Assembly (NCBI GenBank): GCA_041874755.1
Contig: CP102611.1
Span: 1,426,001-1,490,000, forward strand
Reading direction: 5' to 3'
Origin: Chitinibacter sp. SCUT-21
Lineage (GTDB): Bacteria; Pseudomonadota; Gammaproteobacteria; Burkholderiales; Chitinibacteraceae
DNA length: 64,000 nt
Made by a program: the position numbers and the translations under genes. Every line of letters begins with the position of its first letter. The stretch's first letter is position 1. This document shows, one piece after another, positions 3,964 to 42,445 of the stretch. Under the pieces are notes generated by a model, which saw only the letters and a program-made list of their open reading frames with translations, did not search any database and was not told the origin of the DNA.

Positions 3964-6900
3964 TTATGCCGTCTGTGTTTTGCCGCGTTTGCGCGCCCAC
4001 CATTGCACGAAATCATCGACAAAAGTAAACACCACAGGAATCACCAGCAAGCTCAAGAATGTTGACGTAATCAAGCCACCGATCACCGCAATGGCCATTG
4101 GCGAGCGAAAACTCGAATCCGCGCCCCAACCGAGCGCAATCGGCAACATACCCGCACCCATTGCAATCGTCGTCATTACAATCGGGCGCGCCCGTTTGTG
4201 ACACGCATCCATCAAGGCATCAAAGCGGTTTTTCCCTTCGCGGCGCGCGACAATCGCGTATTCCACCAGCAAGATTGAGTTTTTGGTCGCAATCCCCATC
4301 AACATAATCAAACCAATTAACGATGGCATCGCAAACGCGCTATTGGCAATCAGCAGCGCAACAAACGCGCCACCAATCGACAGCGGCAAAGCGGCCAGAA
4401 TCGTGATCGGCTGCATAAAATCACGGAACAGCAGCACCAGCACCATGTAAATACACAGCACACCAGTCAACATCGCCAAACCAAAGCTAGCGAAGAGTTT
4501 TTTCATCTCTTCAGCGTCGCCAAACTCAGCACGCGTCACACCGGCCGGCAGGTTTTTCAGCGCAGGTAGTTCATCCAACTCAGCGCTCACCTCGCCCAAA
4601 GAACGGCCATTAAGCTCAACGTCGAAAATCACATTGCGGGCGCGATCGTAGCGGCTAATCAAGCTCGGCCCGCTGGAGATTTCCACATTCGCCACTTGCC
4701 CCAACATCACTTCGCCTTGATTCGATGGCACGCGCAGGCGTTTAATTGCCTCCAAATCAGTGCGGAAGGCATCAGGCAAACGCACCACCACCGGTACTTG
4801 GCGTTCAGGCAAATTCAATTTGGCCAGCGCAGTATCAAAATCCCCCACCGTTGCCACGCGAATGGTATTGGCAATCGCTAAACCCGTGACCCCCATATCG
4901 GCGGCTTTGGCCATATCAGGGCGAATGATGACTTCGGGGCGCACCAAGCTAGCACTGGAAATAATCGCGCCCACGCCTTGCAGCGTACGCAAATCTTTTT
5001 CGATGTTTTTCGCCGCCAGCGCCAAGGCTTCGGGATCGTCCGACTTAATAATCATCTGCAGTTTTTCGCCCGATTGACCCAAGCCAATTTTGACACGCGC
5101 ACCGGGCAACACGGCGAGCGCTTCGCGCAGATTCTTTTCGATCTGCGTTTTCTTGATTGGACGCTCTTTGCGATCGGCCAAGGTCAAGGTAATGCTCGCT
5201 TTATTCACGCTACTCGAACCACCCGCAAATGGGTCAGCCCCAGCCTTACCACCACCAATCGCGGTATACATGCGTGTGATATACGGCTGTTTTTCGATAA
5301 TGTGGCGAGCTTGTTCGGTCACTTTAAAGGTGTCTTGCAAGGTCGCGCCCGGCGGCAATTCAATGCTGACTAAGGTTTGAGATCGATCATCGGCCGGCAC
5401 AAAGCCGGTTGGCAACAGCGGCACCAAGGCCAAAGAACCTACAAAAAACAGGATCGACAGCACGGCGGTTTTTTTCCGATTGCGCAAGCACCATTCTGCC
5501 CACCGCATATAAGTGGCCATGATGCGGCCTTCTTTGGGCTGATGCATAATCGGCTTGAGTAAATAGGCGGCCATCATCGGCGTGAGCAGACGCGCTACGA
5601 GCAAGGAGGCCATCACCGCCAGCGCCGCAGTCCAACCGAAGGAAATAAAGAATTTACCTGGAATACCGCCCATAAACGCGGTCGGCAAAAACACGGCGAC
5701 CAAGGCAAAAGTGGTCGCGATCACCGCCAGGCCAATCTCATCGGCCGCTTCCATCGCGGCCTGATACGGCGTTTTGCCCATGCGTAAATGGCGCACGATG
5801 TTTTCGATTTCGACAATCGCATCGTCGACCAAAATCCCGACCACCAAGGCCATCGACAGCAAAGTCACGGTATTGAGCGTAAAGCCCATATAGTGCATAC
5901 CGATAAAGGTTGGCAGCACCGATAAAGGCAGCGCCGCGGCCGACACCAAAGTCGCACGCCAGTCGCGCAAGAAGAACCACACCACCACAATCGCCAGCAG
6001 TGCGCCTTCGTACAGCAGCATCATCGAGCCATCAAACTCGTCCTGTACTGGCTGCGCCATATCGTAGGCTTGATTAATTTGCAGCGATGGATGTTCGGCC
6101 TTGAGTTGCGCCAATACTTTTTGCACCTGCTCGGCGACTTCCGTTTCACTTGCGCCACGAGCGCGGGTAATTTCAAACCCCACCACCGCTTTACCATCGA
6201 GCTGCGCAATCGTGCGGCGCTCGGCAATCGTGTCTTCAACCGTGGCGATTTGGTCTAAACGAATTCGGCGGCCATCGGCTAAAGACAATTCCATTTTGGC
6301 CAATTCAGCCGCGGTTTGTACCGTGGCAATGGTACGAAATGCCTGTTCAGCCCCGCCTAAATCAGCACGACCACCCGAGGCGTCTTTTTGTGTAATCGCC
6401 AGCTGGCGTGAGATATCGCTACTGGTCACACCCAAAGCGCTCATCCGCTCAGGATCAAGCTCGATGCGCACTTCACGGCTCACACCACCAACTCGCGACA
6501 CTTGCCCAACGCCCGATACCGAACGAATGGAGCGAGTAATTTTATTATCGACCAGCCATGACAACTGCTCCTCGTCGAGCTGAGCATCAGCCACGGTAAA
6601 GACCAAAAACGGCACGCCGGAAAACTCAACCTTGCCGACAATCGGGTCTTTCATATCGGACGGTAATTCTCCGCGCACATTGGAGATCGCGTCGCGAACA
6701 TCGTCCACCGCTTCATTGATCGGCTTTTCCAGCTCAAACTCAACCGTCATCCCAACGACGCCGTCGGTAATATTGCTATAAACGTGCTTAACGCCGCGTA
6801 GCGCCGAGACCGAATTTTCGATTTTGCGCGCCACTTCCGTTTCCAATTGCGCCGGTGCCGCGCCATCGAGCACCGCAGTCACCGTCACCATCGGCAATTC

Positions 6901-33277: not shown

Positions 33278-35038
33278 ATGGAAATTTCGGGCGCAGAAAT
33301 TCTGGCGCGATGCCTGGCCGAAGAAAACGTAGAGTTCGTTTTCGGCTACCCGGGCGGCGCTGTTTTGGAAATCTATGATGCGATTTTCAAACAAAACAAC
33401 TTCAAACACGTTCTCGTTCGCCATGAACAAGCCGCAATTCACGCTGCTGATGCTTACTCACGCTCGTCACAAAAAATTGGCGTTGCGCTGGTAACTTCAG
33501 GCCCAGGCGCGACCAATGCCATTACCGGCATTGCAACGGCGTTTATGGATTCGATCCCGATGGTGGTAATTTCCGGCCAAGTCGGCACGCCAATGATCGG
33601 TTCGGACGCGTTCCAAGAAGTCGACATGGTCGGCTGTTCACGCCCAGTCGTGAAACACAACTTCTTGGTCAAAGACGTGAAAGATCTGGCTACCACGATC
33701 AAAAAGGCTTTCCATATTGCAACGACTGGCCGCCCAGGCCCGGTTGTAGTTGACGTGCCTAAAGACGTGACGCAAGCCAAAACCGTTTTCGAATACCCAA
33801 AATCAGTATCGATTCGTAGCTACAATCCGCCGGTGAAAGGTCACCCAGGCCAGATTAAAAAAGCCGCGCAATTGATCGCCGAAGCGAAACGCCCGTATAT
33901 CTATGTCGGTGGTGGCGCGGTATTGGGCAATGCAGCGGAAGAAGTCACCGAACTGGTTCGCATGCTGAACGTGCCTTGTACCAACACGCTGATGGGTTTG
34001 GGCGCATATCCAGGCTCGGACGAGAAATTCGTCGGCATGCTCGGTATGCACGGTACCTACGAAGCCAATATGGCGATGCAATACGCCGACACGATCATTG
34101 CGATCGGCGCGCGTTTTGACGACCGCGTGATTTCGAACCCGACTCAGTTCTTGTCGCAAGCGAAAAAAATCGTTCAGATCGACATCGATCCATCGTCAAT
34201 CGCCAAGCGCGTTAAAGTTGACGTGCCTATCGTGGGCGACGTGAAAGACGTTCTGAAAGACCTGATCGCGATCTTGAAAGAAACCAATACTCGCCCGAGC
34301 GAAAAAGCCTTGAGCGCGTGGTGGGATCAGATCAACGATTGGCGCAAGCCAAACAGCCTGTGGTACGCGCAAGATGATGAAATCATCCAGCCACAGTTTG
34401 TAATGCAAAAACTGTACGAAGTAACAGGCGGCAACGCGATCATTACGTCTGACGTGGGTCAGCACCAAATGTACACCGCGCAGTTCTACAAGTTTGATCG
34501 TCCACGCCAATGGATTAACTCAGGTGGCTTGGGCACAATGGGCTTTGGTCTGCCAGCCGCGATGGGCGCGCAATTGGCCAACCCATACGCTGATGTTGCT
34601 TGTATTACCGGTGACGGCTCAATTCAGATGAACATCCAAGAATTGTCGACGTGCAAGCAATACCACACGCCAGTGAAAATCATTAACTTGAATAATGGTT
34701 ACCTCGGCATGGTGCGTCAGTGGCAAGAATTCTTCTACGGCACGCGTTATTCCGAGTCGTACGTAGATGCGCTGCCCGACTTCGTGAAACTCGCCGAAGC
34801 CTATGGCCACGTGGGTATGCAGATCAGCAAACCTGCTGATGTAGAGCCTGCACTGCGCGAAGCATTTGCGATGAAAGAGCGCCTGGTATTTATGGATTTC
34901 CTAACCAATCCAAAAGCCAACGTGTTCCCAATGGTGCAAAACGGCAAAGGCCTGAACCAAATGGACTTGCCACCGCATATGCAAAACATGCAGCTCACGC
35001 CATTCGAAAACAACCGTGACTACGGCAATCTTTGCTAA
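33278..35038 (+). CDS. ilvB: Acetolactate synthase large (catalytic) subunit
   Basis: 586 residues. Catalytic Glu50 in RHEQAAIHAADAYSR, the N-terminal FGYPGGAVLEIYDA, and the thiamine-diphosphate motif GDGSIQMNIQELSTCKQYHT ending in LNN are visible. It condenses pyruvate to acetolactate (Val/Leu) or with 2-oxobutyrate to acetohydroxybutyrate (Ile). It begins the operon ilvB-ilvN-ilvC; ilvA lies 23 kb away in the same window. It is more like the IlvI/IlvB type fed by a valine-sensitive small subunit. Confidence 0.97.
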   Translation: MEISGAEILARCLAEENVEFVFGYPGGAVLEIYDAIFKQNNFKHVLVRHEQAAIHAADAYSRSSQKIGVALVTSGPGATNAITGIATAFMDSIPMVVISGQVGTPMIGSDAFQEVDMVGCSRPVVKHNFLVKDVKDLATTIKKAFHIATTGRPGPVVVDVPKDVTQAKTVFEYPKSVSIRSYNPPVKGHPGQIKKAAQLIAEAKRPYIYVGGGAVLGNAAEEVTELVRMLNVPCTNTLMGLGAYPGSDEKFVGMLGMHGTYEANMAMQYADTIIAIGARFDDRVISNPTQFLSQAKKIVQIDIDPSSIAKRVKVDVPIVGDVKDVLKDLIAILKETNTRPSEKALSAWWDQINDWRKPNSLWYAQDDEIIQPQFVMQKLYEVTGGNAIITSDVGQHQMYTAQFYKFDRPRQWINSGGLGTMGFGLPAAMGAQLANPYADVACITGDGSIQMNIQELSTCKQYHTPVKIINLNNGYLGMVRQWQEFFYGTRYSESYVDALPDFVKLAEAYGHVGMQISKPADVEPALREAFAMKERLVFMDFLTNPKANVFPMVQNGKGLNQMDLPPHMQNMQLTPFENNRDYGNLC

Positions 35039-35051
35039 GGAGAGATGAATC

Positions 35052-35543
35052 ATGCGTCATATTTTGTCTGTCCTGATTGAAAACGAAGCCGGCGCGCTGA
35101 GCCGCGTAACGGGTCTATTTTCTGCCCGTGGTTACAATATTGATTCATTGACGGTGCAAACCACCGAAGATCCTACGATGAGCCGCATGACAATCGTCAC
35201 GCATGGCTCGGAAGATGTGATCGAACAAATCACTAAGCAGCTCAACAAGCTGATTGAAGTGGTTAAAGTGATCGACCTGAACGAGGCCGACCACATTGAG
35301 CGCGAACTAATGCTAATCAAAGTACGCGCCACCGGTAAAGATCGCGACGAAATGAAACGGATGGCGGATATTTTCCGTGGCCGCATCATCGACGTGACCG
35401 AAAAGAGCTACACCATCGAATTGACAGGCCCAGGTGAAAAACTCGACGCCTTTATCAAGGCGCTGGATCAAGCCGTCATTCTGGAAACCGTCCGCACCGG
35501 CGCCTCTGGCATCGGCCGTGGCGAACGAATCTTGAAACTATAA
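35052..35543 (+). CDS. ilvN: Acetolactate synthase small (regulatory) subunit
   Basis: 163 residues, IlvH/IlvN length. N-terminal ACT domain: MRHILSVLIENEAGALSRVT, GLFSARGYNIDSLTVQTTED; second ACT-like C-terminal domain after LMLIKVRATGKDRDEMKRMA. It binds valine and sets feedback inhibition. 13 bp after ilvB with GGAGAG before the ATG. Confidence 0.96.
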   Translation: MRHILSVLIENEAGALSRVTGLFSARGYNIDSLTVQTTEDPTMSRMTIVTHGSEDVIEQITKQLNKLIEVVKVIDLNEADHIERELMLIKVRATGKDRDEMKRMADIFRGRIIDVTEKSYTIELTGPGEKLDAFIKALDQAVILETVRTGASGIGRGERILKL

Positions 35544-36656
<1,113 letters not shown>

Positions 36657-36668
36657 TTTCGTCGCTGC

Positions 36669-36746
36669 AATACGCTAGGGCTTTGTCGCTGCGGCGCTCG
36701 TGTACTTTGCGTACACGTCGCACCTAGCTTCGCGCCCCAGCGTATT
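36669..36746. repeat. Nested inverted repeat after ilvC
   Basis: Outer arms AATACGCT (36669-36676)/AGCGTATT (36739-36746), next arms GCTAGG (36674)/CCTAGC (36723), and a central CGTGTAC-TTTGC-GTACACG (36699-36717). The nested arms make a 78-bp imperfect cruciform-like element, reminiscent of dispersed palindromic repeats. It lies in the untranslated region after ilvC. Confidence 0.55.
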
Positions 36747-36757
36747 TCCCAGACGAA

Positions 36758-36786
36758 TGTTTAGCGGCCGTTTCGCTCGCTAAACA
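36758..36786. repeat. Second stem-loop after ilvC
   Basis: TGTTTAGCG (36758-36766) and CGCTAAACA (36778-36786) form a perfect 9-bp stem with an 11-base loop, between the nested repeat and the terminator. Confidence 0.55.
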
Positions 36787-36797
36787 ATAGTTAAAAG

Positions 36798-36823
36798 AAA
36801 ACCGGCTTTATGCCGGTTTTTTT
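36798..36823 (+). terminator. Rho-independent terminator of ilvBNC
   Basis: AAAACCGGC-TTTAT-GCCGGTTTT with seven T in a row at the end. Confidence 0.9.
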
Positions 36824-36856
36824 ATAAGTACCGCAACATCATCGAAAGTGACATTC

Positions 36857-37813
36857 ATGGATCAAATCGACATTGTCTATTTATGGGTCAACGGCGCAGA
36901 TCCTATCTGGCAACGCAAACGCGCGCAGGCGCAGCAGCGTTTGAATCCGGATTCGCTGGCGCAATACGGCAATGTGGCTGGGCGGTATCGGGATAATGGC
37001 GAGCTACGATATAACTTGCGCGCACTCGAACGCTTTTTTCCTGATCATGGGCAGATTTTCATCGTCACCGACGGTCAGCGGCCGGAGTGGCTAGCTGAGC
37101 ATGAGAAAGTCACGCTAATTGATCACGCCGATTTGATTCCAGCAGCTGCACGCCCGGTGTTTGACGCCGGCCACATCGAATCGTATTTGCACCACATTCC
37201 CAACCTGTCTGAACGCTTTATCTATCTGAACGACGATATTTTCTTTGGCGCGCCCGTCAAACTTGCCGATTGGTTTGCGGCTGATGGTCTTGCGGTACAT
37301 TTCGAGCCCACAGCCAGCCCGACAAGCGATGAGATTCAGAAAAATGAAACCGCCCTCGTAAACGCAGCGGTTATTTCGCGCCGCTGGCTGGGGCAACAAT
37401 TTGCTACGTATCAGCACATCCCGCAGCTATGCGCTCATGCGCCGCGTGCGATGCTAAAAAGCGCCCTGTGGCACTTGGAAGAACAGGCACAAACGCTATT
37501 TCATGCGGTGCGCAGCACGACCTTTCGCAGTTGGTCGATTCCACCGATTATGTCGGATTTGGCGCTACGCTGGATGATTCAGCACGACTTGGCCCGCCCA
37601 CAATTTAGCCCCGCGCTCTATATCAGCAGTTGTGAGCCCAATGCCGGCGAACAGTTTCATGCGCTGCGCCAGCATTTTGGTCAGTTGCCGTATTTTTGCA
37701 TCAATGATACTTGTGATGATTGTGCTGGCGATGATCCGCGTTTAGGCCTAGTGGCCGAAGTGTTGGCGCATTTACTGCCAACCCCATCTCGCTATGAAGT
37801 TAGCGTGGCTTAA
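36857..37813 (+). CDS. Stealth-family sugar-phosphate transferase
   Basis: 318 residues from ATG 36857 (GTG 36848 also possible). The four Stealth conserved regions are visible: DIVYLWVNGADPIWQRKR (CR1), RDNGELRYNLRALERFFP with IFIVTDGQRPEWL (CR2), SERFIYLNDDIFFGAPV (CR3) and YFCINDTCDDC (CR4). Such enzymes transfer hexose- or hexosamine-1-phosphate to capsule or exopolysaccharide chains. No other glycan genes lie nearby, so the acceptor is unknown. Its stop overlaps the opposing gene by 4 bp. Confidence 0.88.
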   Translation: MDQIDIVYLWVNGADPIWQRKRAQAQQRLNPDSLAQYGNVAGRYRDNGELRYNLRALERFFPDHGQIFIVTDGQRPEWLAEHEKVTLIDHADLIPAAARPVFDAGHIESYLHHIPNLSERFIYLNDDIFFGAPVKLADWFAADGLAVHFEPTASPTSDEIQKNETALVNAAVISRRWLGQQFATYQHIPQLCAHAPRAMLKSALWHLEEQAQTLFHAVRSTTFRSWSIPPIMSDLALRWMIQHDLARPQFSPALYISSCEPNAGEQFHALRQHFGQLPYFCINDTCDDCAGDDPRLGLVAEVLAHLLPTPSRYEVSVA

Positions 37814-38565
37814 TCGCCCAAATGTTTAATTTGTATTTTCTTCGCAGTACCATCGCGCTTGATGGCAGCGATGCCGTCATTGATCAAGCGGCGTAATTCT
37901 TCGGCCTGCGGGTGTTTTTTTGTCACGAGAATATGGAAATTCTTAACGGGCTGCACTGGTTCGGCAATATAGGCCATTTGCTCTAAAGAGAGCTCCTTGC
38001 GTGCTTTCATCATTTGGATTACTTCTAACTGCTCAATGGCAAAGTCGTAGCGCCCAGCGATCAACATGCGAAACAAGACTTCACGATTTTTGGCGGTTGT
38101 ATCCAACTTCAACTGCCCAGCATATTGGTCGTAATTAAACCCCAAAATCCCGCCAAAGCTATACGGCTTCATCTCGTCGAGCTGACGAATCACTGGGGCT
38201 TGGGCAAAGCGTTTGGTGTGATAAAACAGCACCAAATGGGTTGTGTATAAAGGTTCGGTGTATAAGGCATACTGGGCACGCTCGTCCCGATATGAGGAAT
38301 TGGGCACTACATCCACTTCGCCGGTTTCCACTTCGGCCAAGCAGCGCTTCCAAGGGCGAATCAAGTGTTTGGGGCTAAGCTGGCGGCGCTTGAAGATTTC
38401 ATTCACCATATCCACAGCAATGCCAGCTACTTGTCCCTGTGAATCCAAGCTTAAATAGGGTGGTTTTAAGCCCTCTTCCCAGCACACACTGACTTCGCTC
38501 GGCAAGGTTTGCGCCGCAGTGAGCACGGGTAAGAATAATGCAGCACCTAAAAAACGCCACTTCAC
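37810..38565 (-). CDS. Periplasmic solute-binding protein, amino-acid type (SBP_bac_3)
   Basis: 251 residues from GTG 38565, chosen because GGGGG lies seven bases upstream and a signal peptide then starts at once (MKWRFLGAALFLPVLTAAQ). Family-3 features: PPYLSLDSQGQVAGIAVDMV, YRDERAQYALYTEPLYTTHL, and GRYDFAIEQLEVIQMM. No transporter genes adjoin it, so it may be an orphan binding protein or belong to a distant ABC system. It converges on the Stealth gene. Confidence 0.85.
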   Translation of the reverse strand: MKWRFLGAALFLPVLTAAQTLPSEVSVCWEEGLKPPYLSLDSQGQVAGIAVDMVNEIFKRRQLSPKHLIRPWKRCLAEVETGEVDVVPNSSYRDERAQYALYTEPLYTTHLVLFYHTKRFAQAPVIRQLDEMKPYSFGGILGFNYDQYAGQLKLDTTAKNREVLFRMLIAGRYDFAIEQLEVIQMMKARKELSLEQMAYIAEPVQPVKNFHILVTKKHPQAEELRRLINDGIAAIKRDGTAKKIQIKHLGD

Positions 38566-38693
38566 TGCTTCACCCCCACGATGCAAATGCTCTTTTTCAG
38601 CCTAGCGCGCTTGCGCTGACACGCAAGGCGTTTTGCTTCATAGGTCAAAAAATCACTTCGTGCGAGCCAATGACTAGGCTCTAGCGGCAGGCC

Positions 38694-38722
38694 AGCTGAA
38701 TACATACACCATGTATTCAGCT
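38694..38722. repeat. Perfect 12-bp inverted repeat downstream of psd
   Basis: AGCTGAATACAT-ACACC-ATGTATTCAGCT, in the 196-bp gap between the binding-protein gene start and the psd stop. No T-run on either strand. It may be the psd transcript end or an operator for the binding-protein gene, 128 bp upstream of its start. Confidence 0.55.
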
Positions 38723-38761
38723 AGAAGAAAATAAAACCGATGCGTAAAGAAACATACCCGA

Positions 38762-39601
38762 TTAAGAGCTCATTGCCTCGCCCAAGCGAACGCCCTTGGC
38801 AGGTTGCCAAGCTGGATTAAACGCGGGAGCGCCTTTTGGATACAACAAGACCACGGTTGAGCCCAGCAAAAAGCGCCCCATCTCCGCGCCCTTGGCAATA
38901 CGAATATCCTGATCGCGGTAATCTTTGCGCCACACCGACTTGCTACGCGGTGGATTGACCACGCCGTGCCACACGGTTGCCATACTGCCAACGATCGTTG
39001 CCCCGACCAGCACCAGCGAGAAATTGCCAAACTCCGATTCAAACATGCACACCACGCGCTCATTGCGCGCAAACAGCGCATCGACGCCACGCGCGGTGGC
39101 TGGGTTCACCGAAAACAATTCGCCCGGCACATAAATCATCTCGGTTAAACGGCCGTCACACGGCATATGGATGCGGTGGTAGTCTTTCGGGCTTAGATAA
39201 ATCGTTGCAAACTGGCCGTTTTCAAACTGCTGCGCCAGCGCCGCATCGCCGCCGAGCAAAGCCGTCGTCGTGAAATGCTTGCCTTTGGCTTGGAAAATCT
39301 GGTCTTTTTCAATCGCGCCAAACTGGCTGATCGCGCCATCAACGGGGCACACCAGCTTGGCATTAGCCAATGGGCGCGCACCGGCTTTGAGCTCGCGCGT
39401 GAAAAACTCATTGAATGTCGGATACGCCGCCGGATCTGGGTTGGCGGCCTCATTCATATTGACTTGGTATTTATTAATAAACCAACGAATCACCGACGTC
39501 GTGATCGAGCCCGCTTGCTTACCAGCAAAATGGCCAAAGAGTTGCGTCAGTGCCTGCTTGGGCAAGATGTGTTGCAGCATTACAAACAGTCGATCAGACA
39601 C
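38762..39601 (-). CDS. psd: Phosphatidylserine decarboxylase proenzyme
   Basis: 279 residues from GTG 39601, chosen since TGGGG lies seven bases upstream and the resulting N-terminus lines up in length with known Psd proteins (LQHILPKQALTQLFGHFAG); ATG 39580 is the alternative. The self-cleavage motif FLLGSTVVLLYPKG supplies the pyruvoyl Ser; Asp in VCPVDGAISQ and His in DYHRIHMPCDG complete the processing triad. It makes phosphatidylethanolamine from phosphatidylserine made by PssA, encoded divergently. A good -10 (TATAAT at 39636-39631, minus strand) lies about 30 bp upstream. Confidence 0.96.
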   Translation of the reverse strand: MSDRLFVMLQHILPKQALTQLFGHFAGKQAGSITTSVIRWFINKYQVNMNEAANPDPAAYPTFNEFFTRELKAGARPLANAKLVCPVDGAISQFGAIEKDQIFQAKGKHFTTTALLGGDAALAQQFENGQFATIYLSPKDYHRIHMPCDGRLTEMIYVPGELFSVNPATARGVDALFARNERVVCMFESEFGNFSLVLVGATIVGSMATVWHGVVNPPRSKSVWRKDYRDQDIRIAKGAEMGRFLLGSTVVLLYPKGAPAFNPAWQPAKGVRLGEAMSS

Positions 39602-39753
39602 AGCCAACCCCAATAACAATCAAAGCGCGGATTATAACGCATCGTATTCGCTTCTTTATACAGGCAATTGCTCGACGATTTATGGTGCAACACTGTCGAG
39701 CCGAGCAAGCCTCAGTTACAATCGAGGCTTCCTATCTAGCCGTTGACGAGATT

Positions 39754-40518
39754 ATGCCGCTCAATACCAAACCGTCGATGAATCTACGCCGCCAAGGCAT
39801 CTATTTATTACCGAATTTATTTACCCTAGCCGCGCTATTTGGTGGCTTTTACGCGATTGTGCAAGCAATGAATGGCCATTTCGAGCAAGCCGCTCTGGCG
39901 ATTTTTGCTGCGATGATTTTGGATGGCCTCGATGGCCGTGTAGCGCGTTTAACGCACACCCAATCAGAATTTGGCGCGCAATTTGATAGTTTGTCCGATA
40001 TGGTGTCGTTTGGTGTCGCTCCCGCCTTGGTGATGTATTCATGGGCACTCTCGAGCTTTGGCAAACTCGGTTGGGCTGCCGCATTTATTTACTGCGCAGG
40101 TGCCGCGCTACGTTTGGCGCGCTTTAACACCAATATTGCCGTCGTGGATAAACGCTTTTTCCAAGGACTACCCAGCCCCGCTGCTGCGGCTTTGGTAGCA
40201 GGCTTGGTGTGGATCAATATCGAATATCGCGAAGATTTGGCGATGTTTGCTGAGCTGCTACCGTATACCGCGCTATTTTTCACCCTATTTGCCGGGCTAA
40301 CAATGGTGTCAAACGTGCCGTTCTGGAGCTTTAAAGAGCTGCACATGCGCAAAACAGTGCCATTTGTATCATTACTGATTGCAACGCTGGTTTTGGTGAT
40401 CGGCGCATCGCGCCCTGCCCTTGTGCTGTTTAGCTTCTTTATTTGTTACGCGGCGTCCGGCTACCTGTATTGGCTGTGGCGTTTTATCAAAAAACCACAC
40501 AAAGCAGCCCAAAATTAG
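39754..40518 (+). CDS. pssA: CDP-diacylglycerol-serine O-phosphatidyltransferase
   Basis: 254 residues from ATG 39754 (the frame extends upstream with no good start). The CDP-alcohol phosphotransferase motif is intact: DGLDGRVARLTHTQSEFGAQ followed by FDSLSD, with all four Asp. Six to eight membrane helices. It makes phosphatidylserine for Psd. TACAAT at 39717-39722 is a possible -10. Its stop lies inside the first of three inverted repeats that precede leuA. Confidence 0.95.
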   Translation: MPLNTKPSMNLRRQGIYLLPNLFTLAALFGGFYAIVQAMNGHFEQAALAIFAAMILDGLDGRVARLTHTQSEFGAQFDSLSDMVSFGVAPALVMYSWALSSFGKLGWAAAFIYCAGAALRLARFNTNIAVVDKRFFQGLPSPAAAALVAGLVWINIEYREDLAMFAELLPYTALFFTLFAGLTMVSNVPFWSFKELHMRKTVPFVSLLIATLVLVIGASRPALVLFSFFICYAASGYLYWLWRFIKKPHKAAQN

Positions 40519-40531
40519 ACAAAAAGTCCAA
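40515..40531. promoter_or_regulatory. Inverted repeat 1 upstream of leuA
   Basis: TTAGAC-AAAAA-GTCCAA: 5 of 6 arm positions pair. It overlaps the pssA stop codon, 140 bp before the long leuA start. Same pattern as the sites at 40598 and 40661. Confidence 0.5.
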
Positions 40532-40551
40532 TATTTCTAGTTTCGACAAAC

Positions 40552-40586
40552 AATAGCGACTAAATTTGCCCTGGTCGCTATTTTTT
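40552..40586 (+). terminator. Terminator of pssA
   Basis: AATAGCGAC (40552-40560), 13-base loop, GTCGCTATT (40574-40582), then four more T residues. Separates pssA from leuA transcription. Confidence 0.8.
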
Positions 40587-40597
40587 CGTCAAAAACA

Positions 40598-40614
40598 TTT
40601 GACACTAAGTCTAA
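40598..40614. promoter_or_regulatory. Inverted repeat 2 over the leuA -35 hexamer
   Basis: TTTGAC-ACTAA-GTCTAA: 5 of 6 arm positions pair. The left arm contains the consensus -35 TTGACA (40599-40604). Binding here would exclude RNA polymerase. Confidence 0.6.
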
Positions 40615-40627
40615 AAATATCTAATCT
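40599..40627 (+). promoter_or_regulatory. leuA: Probable leuA promoter
   Basis: TTGACA (40599-40604) with either TCTAAT (40620-40625, spacing 15) or TAATCT (40622-40627, spacing 17) as -10. It is the only consensus -35 between the pssA terminator and the leuA start, giving a short untranslated leader of about 20-25 bases. Confidence 0.6.
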
Positions 40628-40654
40628 AAACTCATCAACGCAAAGGAGCACACT

Positions 40655-42445
40655 GTGTCATTAGACATTGATCGTCTAATTGCTGATTTTGGTGGACCAA
40701 GTAATCTGGCCGAACAACTCAATAGCTTGTTTCCAGAAGACCCAGTATCCCGCGCAGCGATTTATAAATGGCGTGAACGCGGCAGTTTGCCACTCACCCA
40801 AGTGGACAAACTGGCCAAATTGGCCACAAGCCAAGGCCGCAGTTTCAACATCCAAAACTATATGGCGGGCGCGCAAACCGCCCCGACACAGGAGCACACC
40901 ATGAGCACGAACAACCGTCTGGTCATTTTTGATACCACGCTGCGCGATGGCGAACAATCGCCTGGCGCGTCAATGACCAAAGAAGAAAAAATCCGCATCG
41001 CGCGCCAATTGGAAAAACTCGGCGTTGATGTAATTGAAGCGGGCTTTGCCGCTGCCAGCCCGGGCGACTTTGACGCAATCAAAACCATCGCCGGCATTAT
41101 CGAAAACAGCACCGTCTGTTCGCTCGCTCGTGCCAACGAGCGTGATGTGCGCGCTGCTGGTGAAGCGATTAAAGACGCCAAACGCGGCCGTATTCACACC
41201 TTTATCGCCACCAGCCCAATCCATATGGAACACAAGCTGCGCATGAGCCCCGACCAAGTGGTTGAGGCAGCAGTCAAAGCGGTGAAAATTGCAGGCGAAT
41301 ACACCAAAGACATCGAATTCTCAGCCGAAGACGCACTGCGCTCGGATATTGATTTCCTCGCTCGTATTTTTGGTGCCGTAATTGAAGCAGGTGCAACAAC
41401 ACTGAACGTACCTGACACAGTGGGCTACGCCGTACCACAAAAAACCGAAGCGTTTTTCCGCGAACTGATCGCGAAAACACCGGGCGGCGACAAAGTGATC
41501 TGGTCTGCGCATTGCCACAATGATCTGGGCATGGCGGTGGCCAACTCACTCGCCGCCGTGTTGGGCGGGGCGCGCCAAGTTGAATGTACGATCAATGGCT
41601 TGGGCGAACGTGCAGGCAATGCCGCGATGGAAGAAATCGTAATGGCAACGCGTACCCGCCGCGATATTTTCGGCGTGGAATGCAATGTCGACGCGACGCA
41701 AATCGTGCCAACCAGCAAATTGGTTTCAACGATCACCGGCTACCCAGTACAACCGAATAAAGCGATTGTTGGCGCAAATGCGTTTGCGCATGAATCTGGC
41801 ATTCACCAAGACGGCATTTTGAAACACCGTGAAACCTACGAAATTATGAGCGCAGAATCAGTCGGTTGGAGCACCAACCGCCTGACGCTGGGCAAACTAT
41901 CTGGCCGCAATGCCTTCAAAACCAAATTGCTGGAATTGGGCATTGAAATTGGCAGTGAAGAAGGCCTGAACGCTGCTTTTGCGCGCTTTAAAGAATTGGC
42001 CGATAAAAAACGCGAGATTTTCGACGAAGACCTGCACGCACTGGTATCAGATGAGCTGATCTCGATTGAACAAGAACACTACAAACTGGTATCGCTCAAA
42101 GTAGTTTCGGAAACAGGCGAGACGCCACAAGCCGAGCTGGTGATTACCGAAGCCGGAGTTGAACGCCGCGCTACTGCGAACGGCGATGGTACGGTTGATG
42201 CGACGTTTAAAGCGATTGAATCTTTGTTTAACAGCGGCGCAGAGCTGCAACTGTATTCAGTGAATGCCATTACCGCGGGCACAGATAGCCAAGGTGAAGT
42301 GACGGTTCGTCTGGCTAAAGCAGGCCGTATTGTGAATGGCCAAGGCGCTGATACCGATATTATCGTGGCAAGTGCAAAAGCTTATATTTCTGCGCTGAAT
42401 AAAATTAACAATAACGAGCAACGCGTTCACCCACAACCCGTTTAA
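40655..42445 (+). CDS. leuA: 2-isopropylmalate synthase with an N-terminal helix-turn-helix domain
   Basis: 596 residues from GTG 40655 (AGGAG six bases upstream), 82 residues longer than a usual LeuA. Residues 1-60 form a Cro/YdaS-like helix-turn-helix: [14 protein letters not shown], then the recognition region [16 protein letters not shown] (32-47) and QVDKLAKLA; residues 62-82 are a linker. Residue 83 is Met at ATG 40901, preceded by the same AGGAGCACAC as the GTG, and starts a normal LeuA of 514 residues: [14 protein letters not shown] with metal Asp93, HCHND with His286 and His288, and a complete C-terminal leucine-binding dimer domain. Two products are therefore likely. I infer leucine-responsive autoregulation via the inverted repeats upstream. 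The catalytic role, first step of leucine synthesis, is certain; the DNA-binding role is inference. Confidence 0.95.
40661..40679. promoter_or_regulatory. Inverted repeat 3 inside the leuA 5' coding end
   Basis: TTAGAC-ATTGATC-GTCTAA: perfect 6-bp arms, 7-base spacer, covering codons 3-9 of the long leuA form. Spacer is two bases longer than in sites 1 and 2. Centres of sites 1-2 and 2-3 are 83 and 64 bp apart, near whole helical turns. Confidence 0.5.
40890..40903 (+). promoter_or_regulatory. leuA: Internal ribosome binding site and ATG for a short LeuA
   Basis: AGGAGCACAC-C-ATG repeats exactly the 10 bases AGGAGCACAC found before the GTG start (40644-40653). Spacing to the start codon is six bases after AGGAG in both. 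It would yield a LeuA of standard length without the helix-turn-helix. Confidence 0.7.

Follow-up and report, generated by a model that had tools for sequence, protein, structure and literature searches.

Can a biosynthetic enzyme act as the repressor of its own gene? This question is raised by leuA of Chitinibacter sp. SCUT-21 (family Chitinibacteraceae, order Burkholderiales), which lies in a stretch of 64,000 nucleotides (assembly GCA_041874755.1, contig CP102611.1, positions 1,426,001 to 1,490,000; hereafter the window) and encodes a 2-isopropylmalate synthase that carries a Cro-like helix-turn-helix (HTH) domain, here called the head, at its N-terminus. Comparative sequence analysis suggests, with a probability that we put at about 0.8, that leuA is autogenously repressed by this long product, HTH-LeuA. 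We infer that the fused head binds palindromes in the leuA promoter, that the effect is repression, that looping is involved, and that both a long and a short form of the enzyme are made.

Domain composition and conservation

An earlier interpretation of the bare DNA letters (the sequence-only reading) had described an uninterrupted frame composed of an HTH domain, a linker and full-length LeuA with its leucine-binding domain. Profile searches agree with this. The NCBI profile NF046037, whose name carph-isopro the sequence-only reading gave correctly, matches residues 5-65 over its whole length (positions 1-54 of 54; 67.9 bits with the whole protein, cut-off 38), and the 82-residue N-terminal piece, for which a domain search had been suggested, scores 72.4 bits by itself. 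The LeuA equivalog NF002087 matches residues 84-594 with 896.9 bits (cut-off 729; positions 2-512 of 516), and the HMGL-like, HCS_D2 and LeuA_dimer domains are all complete, the last of these (PF08502) scoring 128.9 bits (cut-off 24.9; positions 1-130 of 131). By its full-length profile match the fused enzyme is LeuA, with catalysis and leucine inhibition as predicted properties. It is the sole LeuA seen in its genome. Two further HMGL-like matches were set aside, the first a 540-residue frame (locus L002, 1495-3099; region C1:1044634) with an aldolase-like first half that scores far below the LeuA cut-offs, the second a pyruvate carboxylase as judged by eye.

The head had also been called Cro/YdaS-like, a description that does not extend to the Pfam families of these names: P22_Cro (PF14549) and YdaS_toxin (PF15943) gave 16.2 and 15.7 bits for the 82-residue piece, below their cut-offs of 30.2 and 30, and by score the head is outside both. 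The solved folds nearest to the modelled head are the prophage Cro proteins of Xfaso 1 (3bd1) and N15 (2hin; 6on0 with operator DNA), with 18-27% identity and modest fold scores. The fold matches also include the epoxidase HppE (PDB 1zz6 and kin), an enzyme whose N-terminal domain is likewise HTH-like.

The fusion is a trait common to Chitinibacter, Chromobacterium and kin, and no oddity. Among 81 genomes surveyed, all 43 of the window's family have a head-bearing frame of LeuA size (599-674 amino acids), and the fusion was found in three of 38 genomes (G054, G068 and G073) that represent other families of the order with one genome each. Genome G016 has two head-bearing frames of equal score (599 and 605 amino acids, at C1:824966 and C1:2418818), perhaps two LeuA fusions. 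Collecting LeuA proteins with the extension, as had likewise been proposed, yielded 98 protein clusters. Upstream regions and starts were compared at 76 loci, namely the window and 75 named loci that were fetched from Chitinibacter, Deefgea, Chromobacterium, Vogesella, Aquitalea, Iodobacter, Leeia, Aquaspirillum and other genera. The complete fusion frame is open in 74 of these, the exceptions being a frame that runs off the contig end (L039) and one with a frameshift in the head (L103); the interruption in the latter, from Paludibacterium denitrificans (6001-6300), may be an assembly error or real. Among the aligned loci that of Chitinibacter sp. GC72 (L034) comes closest, with 97% across the head.

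In the 98 homologues, the mean frequency of the top residue is 0.957 in the recognition-helix region (residues 31-46), 0.894 in the catalytic part (88-450), 0.813 in LeuA_dimer and 0.438 in the unconserved linker (67-82). Since the recognition-helix region shows the highest conservation of any stretch measured, the presumed DNA contacts of the head appear to be under strong selection.

Candidate operators in the leuA promoter

Repeats of the type TTAGAC/GTCTAA were noticed when the 76 upstream regions were read side by side. In a count of all gapped palindromes with 4-base arms, made without a preset motif and with expectations from Markov shuffles, GACA-N3-TGTC (35 of 76 loci, 0.2 expected) and AGAC-N5-GTCT (23 of 76, 0.2 expected) came out highest. 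Two candidate operators of 17 bp, O1 and O2 (Table 1), are located mostly at -128 to -141 and at -55 to -61 relative to leuA; in the window O1 shares bases with the stop codon of the pssA-like frame that precedes leuA and ends at 40518. All six bases of the core GAC-N5-GTC are present in 56 of 76 loci for O1, in 69 for O2 and in 50 for both, and at least five of the six in 75 loci for O1 and in 73 for both. With even base frequencies a complete core would arise by chance in about 1.5% of loci within the O1 search range and a five-of-six core in about a quarter, and therefore the weight rests on the complete cores. When 22 loci from 21 genera were picked, 20 had both cores with at least five of six bases; Andreprevotia and Jeongeupia failed, and Leeia passed with a poor O1, a better but half-conserved O1 being present at -124.

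The TTGAC inside O2 is the -35 box and by itself no evidence for an operator. The right arm of O2 lies within the promoter spacer, where its G, T and C are kept in 72, 74 and 70 of the 76 loci, and each of the ten spacer columns that follow carries less than 0.45 bit. We know of no sigma factor that needs the position of this arm. A simple promoter scan of 40450-40950 reported no promoter, in our opinion because the -10 box is weak. Reckoned from this box the 5' leader would be only about 20 nucleotides long; an attenuator or RNA leader was considered and rejected, as Rfam gave no match in 40400-41000.

Because O2 lies over the -35 box, repression is the simplest reading: HTH-LeuA bound to O2 would cover this box and exclude RNA polymerase. 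The upstream position of O1 and the weak -10 box would also suit an activator, so the long form might activate leuA, or activate from O1 and repress from O2. We consider this unlikely, as O2 over the -35 box and spacer is in a blocking position and the GalU fusions described below place one of their sites between the -35 box and the ATG.

Under repression, O1 would assist O2 from a distance of some 4 to 8 helical turns, roughly in phase, with a second pair of heads joining by looping. The O1-O2 distances are 41, 53, 62, 64-66, 71-75 and 82-84 bp, and the cluster values of 41, 53, 62, 65, 73 and 83 bp correspond to 3.9, 5.05, 5.9, 6.2, 6.95 and 7.9 turns of 10.5 bp. For these six values an in-phase test gave p ~0.0015 and a plain test p 0.014, both post hoc, with L086, L087 and L091 left out for their changed O2 spacing, L085, L092 and L093 set by hand, and the 53-bp cases (L179, L190) added. 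Distances of 66 and 71 bp are off phase by 0.29 and 0.24 turn. The spacing is thus a weak hint of looping.

A third site, O3, is found inside codons 3-9 and is listed as a tentative candidate only, because its spacer is 7 bp instead of 5. At 23 of 76 loci codon 8 is the rare leucine codon CTA, a count that the remainder of the same genes would put at 0.9; this is not a general early-codon effect, since at leucine codons 18, 22 and 25 CTA was seen in 1 of 65, 2 of 73 and 0 of 31 cases. Both arms (TTRGAC and GTC) are present in 28 of 76 loci, with 63-68 bp between the centres of O2 and O3. The DNA at O3 seems to be selected.

Specificity of the palindromes

As controls we used leuA genes without the fusion, taken from other families of the order, with upstream regions of 250 bp (one of 88 bp); 27 were obtained from the 30 loci given (33 were over the cut-off), the remaining three being fused and moved to the fused set. 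Their best scores against the 12-base consensus were at most 9 in 27 of 27, with 9 reached once, 8 in six cases and 6 or 7 in the other twenty. Fused upstream regions scored 8-12, with at least 10 in 60 of 79, and the 19 with a score of 8 or 9 overlap the unfused range. Only 8 of 1,580 shuffled upstream regions reached 10. The presence of conserved, nearly private palindromes inside 40500-40690, together with their lack in the 27 unfused upstream regions, lends support to the earlier suggestion that the enzyme may regulate its own gene.

The genome of strain SCUT-21 (3.45 Mb) contains six TTAGAC-N5-GTCTAA sites at no more than one mismatch, i.e. O1, O2 and four sites inside coding frames. A wider regulon comprising ilv and leuCDB was rejected, as the location of these four sites adds no target. 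The strict pattern TTDGACNNNWDGTCYAA, which was chosen after the sites were known, occurs at 45 places in the 81 genomes by hand count. Of the 35 places in the 43 family genomes, 29 are directly upstream of fused leuA, as are two of three in G054 and G073; no place was found in G068, which has a fused leuA, and the 35 fusion-free genomes have seven places with none at leuA. The pattern is absent from 21 of the 43 family genomes, where the sites presumably deviate from it. Exact TAGAC-N5-GTCTAA sites with spacers such as CAGTC, GACTG or GACCG probably belong to something else, because two sites of this kind flank a TetR-like gene in the SCUT-21 genome (TAGACCAGTCGTCTA at 2,238,474 and 2,239,286; L286 1975-1989 and 2787-2801). 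Many relatives also have sites of this type whose spacer is fixed in a similar way.

Sister fusions

Weak matches of the head search were traced to two further enzymes with a Cro-like head, GalU and a class V aminotransferase. The GalU fusion is present in 40 of the 43 family genomes, including that of SCUT-21 (L290 1395-2530; G000:C1, about 3,414,894-3,416,029, the genome survey placing it at 3,414,968 onward), and the remaining three gave no close GalU match. All 30 loci examined out of these 40 contain TGTTYA-N6-TRAACA twice, each copy matching at least 10 of 12 positions and the two lying 48-51 bp apart; one copy is situated between the -35 box and the ATG. In the comparison with headless galU these 30 loci scored 11-12. 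Headless galU loci scored 7-9 of 12 over 400 bp in 24 of 27 cases, three having been left out by the parser and the whole frame being checked for unseen heads, and 20 of them scored 6-9 over 150 bp. In the SCUT-21 genome the motif occurs exactly twice, both copies (18 bp) before galU, and the reversed pattern is not found. It is less private elsewhere, with 1-8 matches in other family genomes and 0-5 in 38 genomes of other families. The proximal palindrome of SCUT-21 galU extends into what looks like a -10 box, only a few bases ahead of the ATG, and the galU mRNA may therefore be nearly leaderless.

Of 120 genomes surveyed in the order, 16 encode the aminotransferase fusion, which is also represented by 420 protein clusters (120 listed). 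Loci L225-L240 and L109-L113 encode Burkholderiales class V aminotransferases of the alanine/serine-glyoxylate type with a YdaS/Cro-like head and an upstream palindrome of their own. The motif CTTGTCAAA-N5-TTTGACAAG is matched at 15-17 of 18 positions in 16 of 16 fusions, and at 8-11 in 13 headless relatives (one left out). A broader scan of 274 genomes of the class, including that of SCUT-21, gave a head match in 30, mostly in short frames; a plausible head frame was seen at five of 12 of these loci (L262, L266, L273, L281, L284), none of them encoding a metabolic enzyme with such a head, L284 being an HTH with a methylase. Further fusions may have been missed, because the head model scores the GalU type weakly.

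That three unrelated enzymes each pair the head with their own palindrome is the best argument that the head reads the palindrome. A motif by itself does not name its protein, and a different regulator might bind the leuA sites while the fused head serves another role. This is quite improbable in our view. The palindrome is rarely seen away from fused leuA, the 27 unfused upstream regions are devoid of it, and the pairing recurs in the two other enzymes with other sequences; such a regulator would have to control hardly more than one target and to accompany the fusion in every case.

Two probable translation starts

The sequence-only reading had treated GTG 40655 and ATG 40901 as mutually exclusive starts. 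This either/or is probably wrong; both starts look used, with a Shine-Dalgarno (SD) sequence at each. The internal Met83 is invariant (38 of 38 aligned), and an SD of -6 kcal/mol or better precedes the internal ATG in 56 of 75 loci and the outer start in 64 of 75, compared with 6% of 577 Met codons elsewhere in these genes. In 19 of 75 loci the internal SD is weaker than -6 kcal/mol, and in six it is weaker than -3 (L063, L093 and L052, L054, L058 and L070, which look like Iodobacter). Just before the Met, linker arginines are encoded by AGA in 38 of 50 cases, against 7 of 2,189 across the remainder of the genes, and linker glycine by GGA or GGG in 70 of 75; this use of rare codons indicates that the internal SD is preserved. 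Probably leuA yields both the long HTH-enzyme and the short plain enzyme in most of these species.

A good internal SD in most loci would also be expected if the head were a relic in decay and the short form the sole product. We find this scarcely credible given the open head in 74 of 76 loci, the exceptional conservation of its recognition residues and the strong SD at the head's own start.

The GalU and aminotransferase fusions have the same layout and lack a leucine domain. Their internal SDs average -5.5 and -6.6 kcal/mol, reaching -6 or better in 7 of 30 and 11 of 16 loci; at the outer start this strength is reached in 0 of 30 and 1 of 16, three of the 16 aminotransferase outer starts being doubtfully placed.

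Proposed mechanism and the role of leucine

LeuA is at least a dimer and is inhibited by its end product. In the proposed autorepression, HTH-LeuA would bind O1 and O2 in its own promoter, the internal start with its own ribosome-binding site would supply plain catalytic LeuA, and the share of enzyme-repressor would report the LeuA level in the cell; long and short subunits may mix.

Leucine could act on repression, the central idea of the sequence-only reading, because LeuA_dimer is in the same chain, and we give about even odds to the possibility that leucine strengthens DNA binding by long LeuA. The sister fusions without a leucine domain weigh against this part of the proposal and favour plain dosage control. 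An autorepressor in which leucine acts on catalysis only, the head counting LeuA molecules and thereby steadying enzyme level and noise, seems to us just short of an even bet. Such a design would be common to all three unrelated enzymes, and the floppy, unconserved linker makes a poor allosteric signal path; however, LeuA_dimer is kept intact, and a leucine-induced change of dimer geometry could still shift two tethered heads. Both versions lie within autorepression and their odds should not be added up to one. The floppy linker and the leucine-domain-free sisters favour dosage control as what the three fusions have in common. More tentatively, and with somewhat less confidence than an even chance, we propose that Betaproteobacteria repeatedly made Cro heads into dosage controls (LeuA, GalU, aminotransferase), each with a dual start and its own operator, and that in leuA leucine tunes both catalysis and repression.

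Table 1. Predicted features of the leuA locus, in window coordinates.
Feature	Position	Strand	Remarks
Candidate operator O1, TTAGACAAAAAGTCCAA	40515..40531		11/12 to consensus TTAGAC-N5-GTCTAA
Candidate operator O2, TTTGACACTAAGTCTAA	40598..40614		11/12 to consensus; over -35 box and start of promoter spacer
Inferred -35 box, TTGACA	40599..40604	+	TTGAC in 75/76 loci, TTGAT in one
Inferred -10 box, TAATCT	40622..40627	+	17-bp spacer; T 51, A 53, last T 54 of 76
SD of long form, AAAGGAG	40642..40648	+	duplex -7.9 kcal/mol
leuA long form (Cro-like HTH, linker, 2-isopropylmalate synthase)	40655..42445	+	596 amino acids, GTG start, open frame
Candidate operator O3, TTAGAC-N7-GTCTAA	40661..40679		inside codons 3-9
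HTH domain, residues 5-65	40667..40849	+	modelled helices 5-11, 15-25, 33-42, 47-59
Flexible linker, residues 72-85	40868..40909	+	pLDDT <50 in the model
Internal SD, CAGGAG	40889..40894	+	-6.6 kcal/mol
leuA short form from Met83, plain 2-isopropylmalate synthase	40901..42445	+	predicted from internal SD
LeuA_dimer leucine-binding regulatory domain, residues 454-584	42014..42406	+	profile match

The gene order in 33278-42445 of the window is ilvB, ilvH, ilvC, two inserted frames, a psd-like gene on the minus strand, a pssA-like gene and leuA, the names other than leuA being assigned from translations.

Comparison with known systems

The idea that a pathway's first, feedback-inhibited enzyme exerts autogenous control is an old one for amino-acid operons, and it seems to have been realised in nature by fusion. 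A test of the proposed leuA loop requires one protein, one promoter and one amino acid. That the design is seen in three unrelated enzymes, with a separate operator for each, suggests a simple and general route to a single-gene regulatory loop. For annotation, the starts assigned to LeuA and GalU matter in these genera, as a dropped head would mean a lost regulator. Among the literature matches listed, no title or abstract beginning described the fusion as a regulator, subscription papers being mostly outside this coverage.

The HTH-LeuA head is a member of NF046037, the name of which seems to refer to isopropylmalate synthase; the operators, the dual start and the sister fusions come from the present analysis. 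Prophage Cro proteins (3bd1; 2hin, 6on0) resemble the head in fold but are small and not fused to an enzyme.

In PMC8249747, PutA of Escherichia coli is described as a trigger enzyme, being both proline dehydrogenase and repressor of putA/putP, and BirA and NadR are named as trigger enzymes and grouped as multi-target regulators. HTH-LeuA resembles PutA, as described there, in being a metabolic enzyme with a DNA-binding domain and, by prediction, a single-target regulator of its own gene. The two share no domain, and PutA is catabolic and represses when proline is absent. The DNA-binding domain of PutA is a ribbon-helix-helix. BirA represses a biosynthetic operon, and like BirA and NadR, HTH-LeuA combines an enzyme and a DNA-binding part in one chain; a head-dropping second start is known to us for neither BirA nor NadR. 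As in trigger enzymes generally, profiles and the model place an enzyme and a DNA-binding domain of HTH-LeuA in one chain. The promoter of leuA has conserved, near-private palindromes at which binding is predicted. Compared with PutA, the biosynthetic role and end-product inhibition of HTH-LeuA, its phage Cro-like head and a probable second start that drops the head are distinguishing features, and we regard the proposed autogenous enzyme-repressor as a further variant of trigger enzymes.
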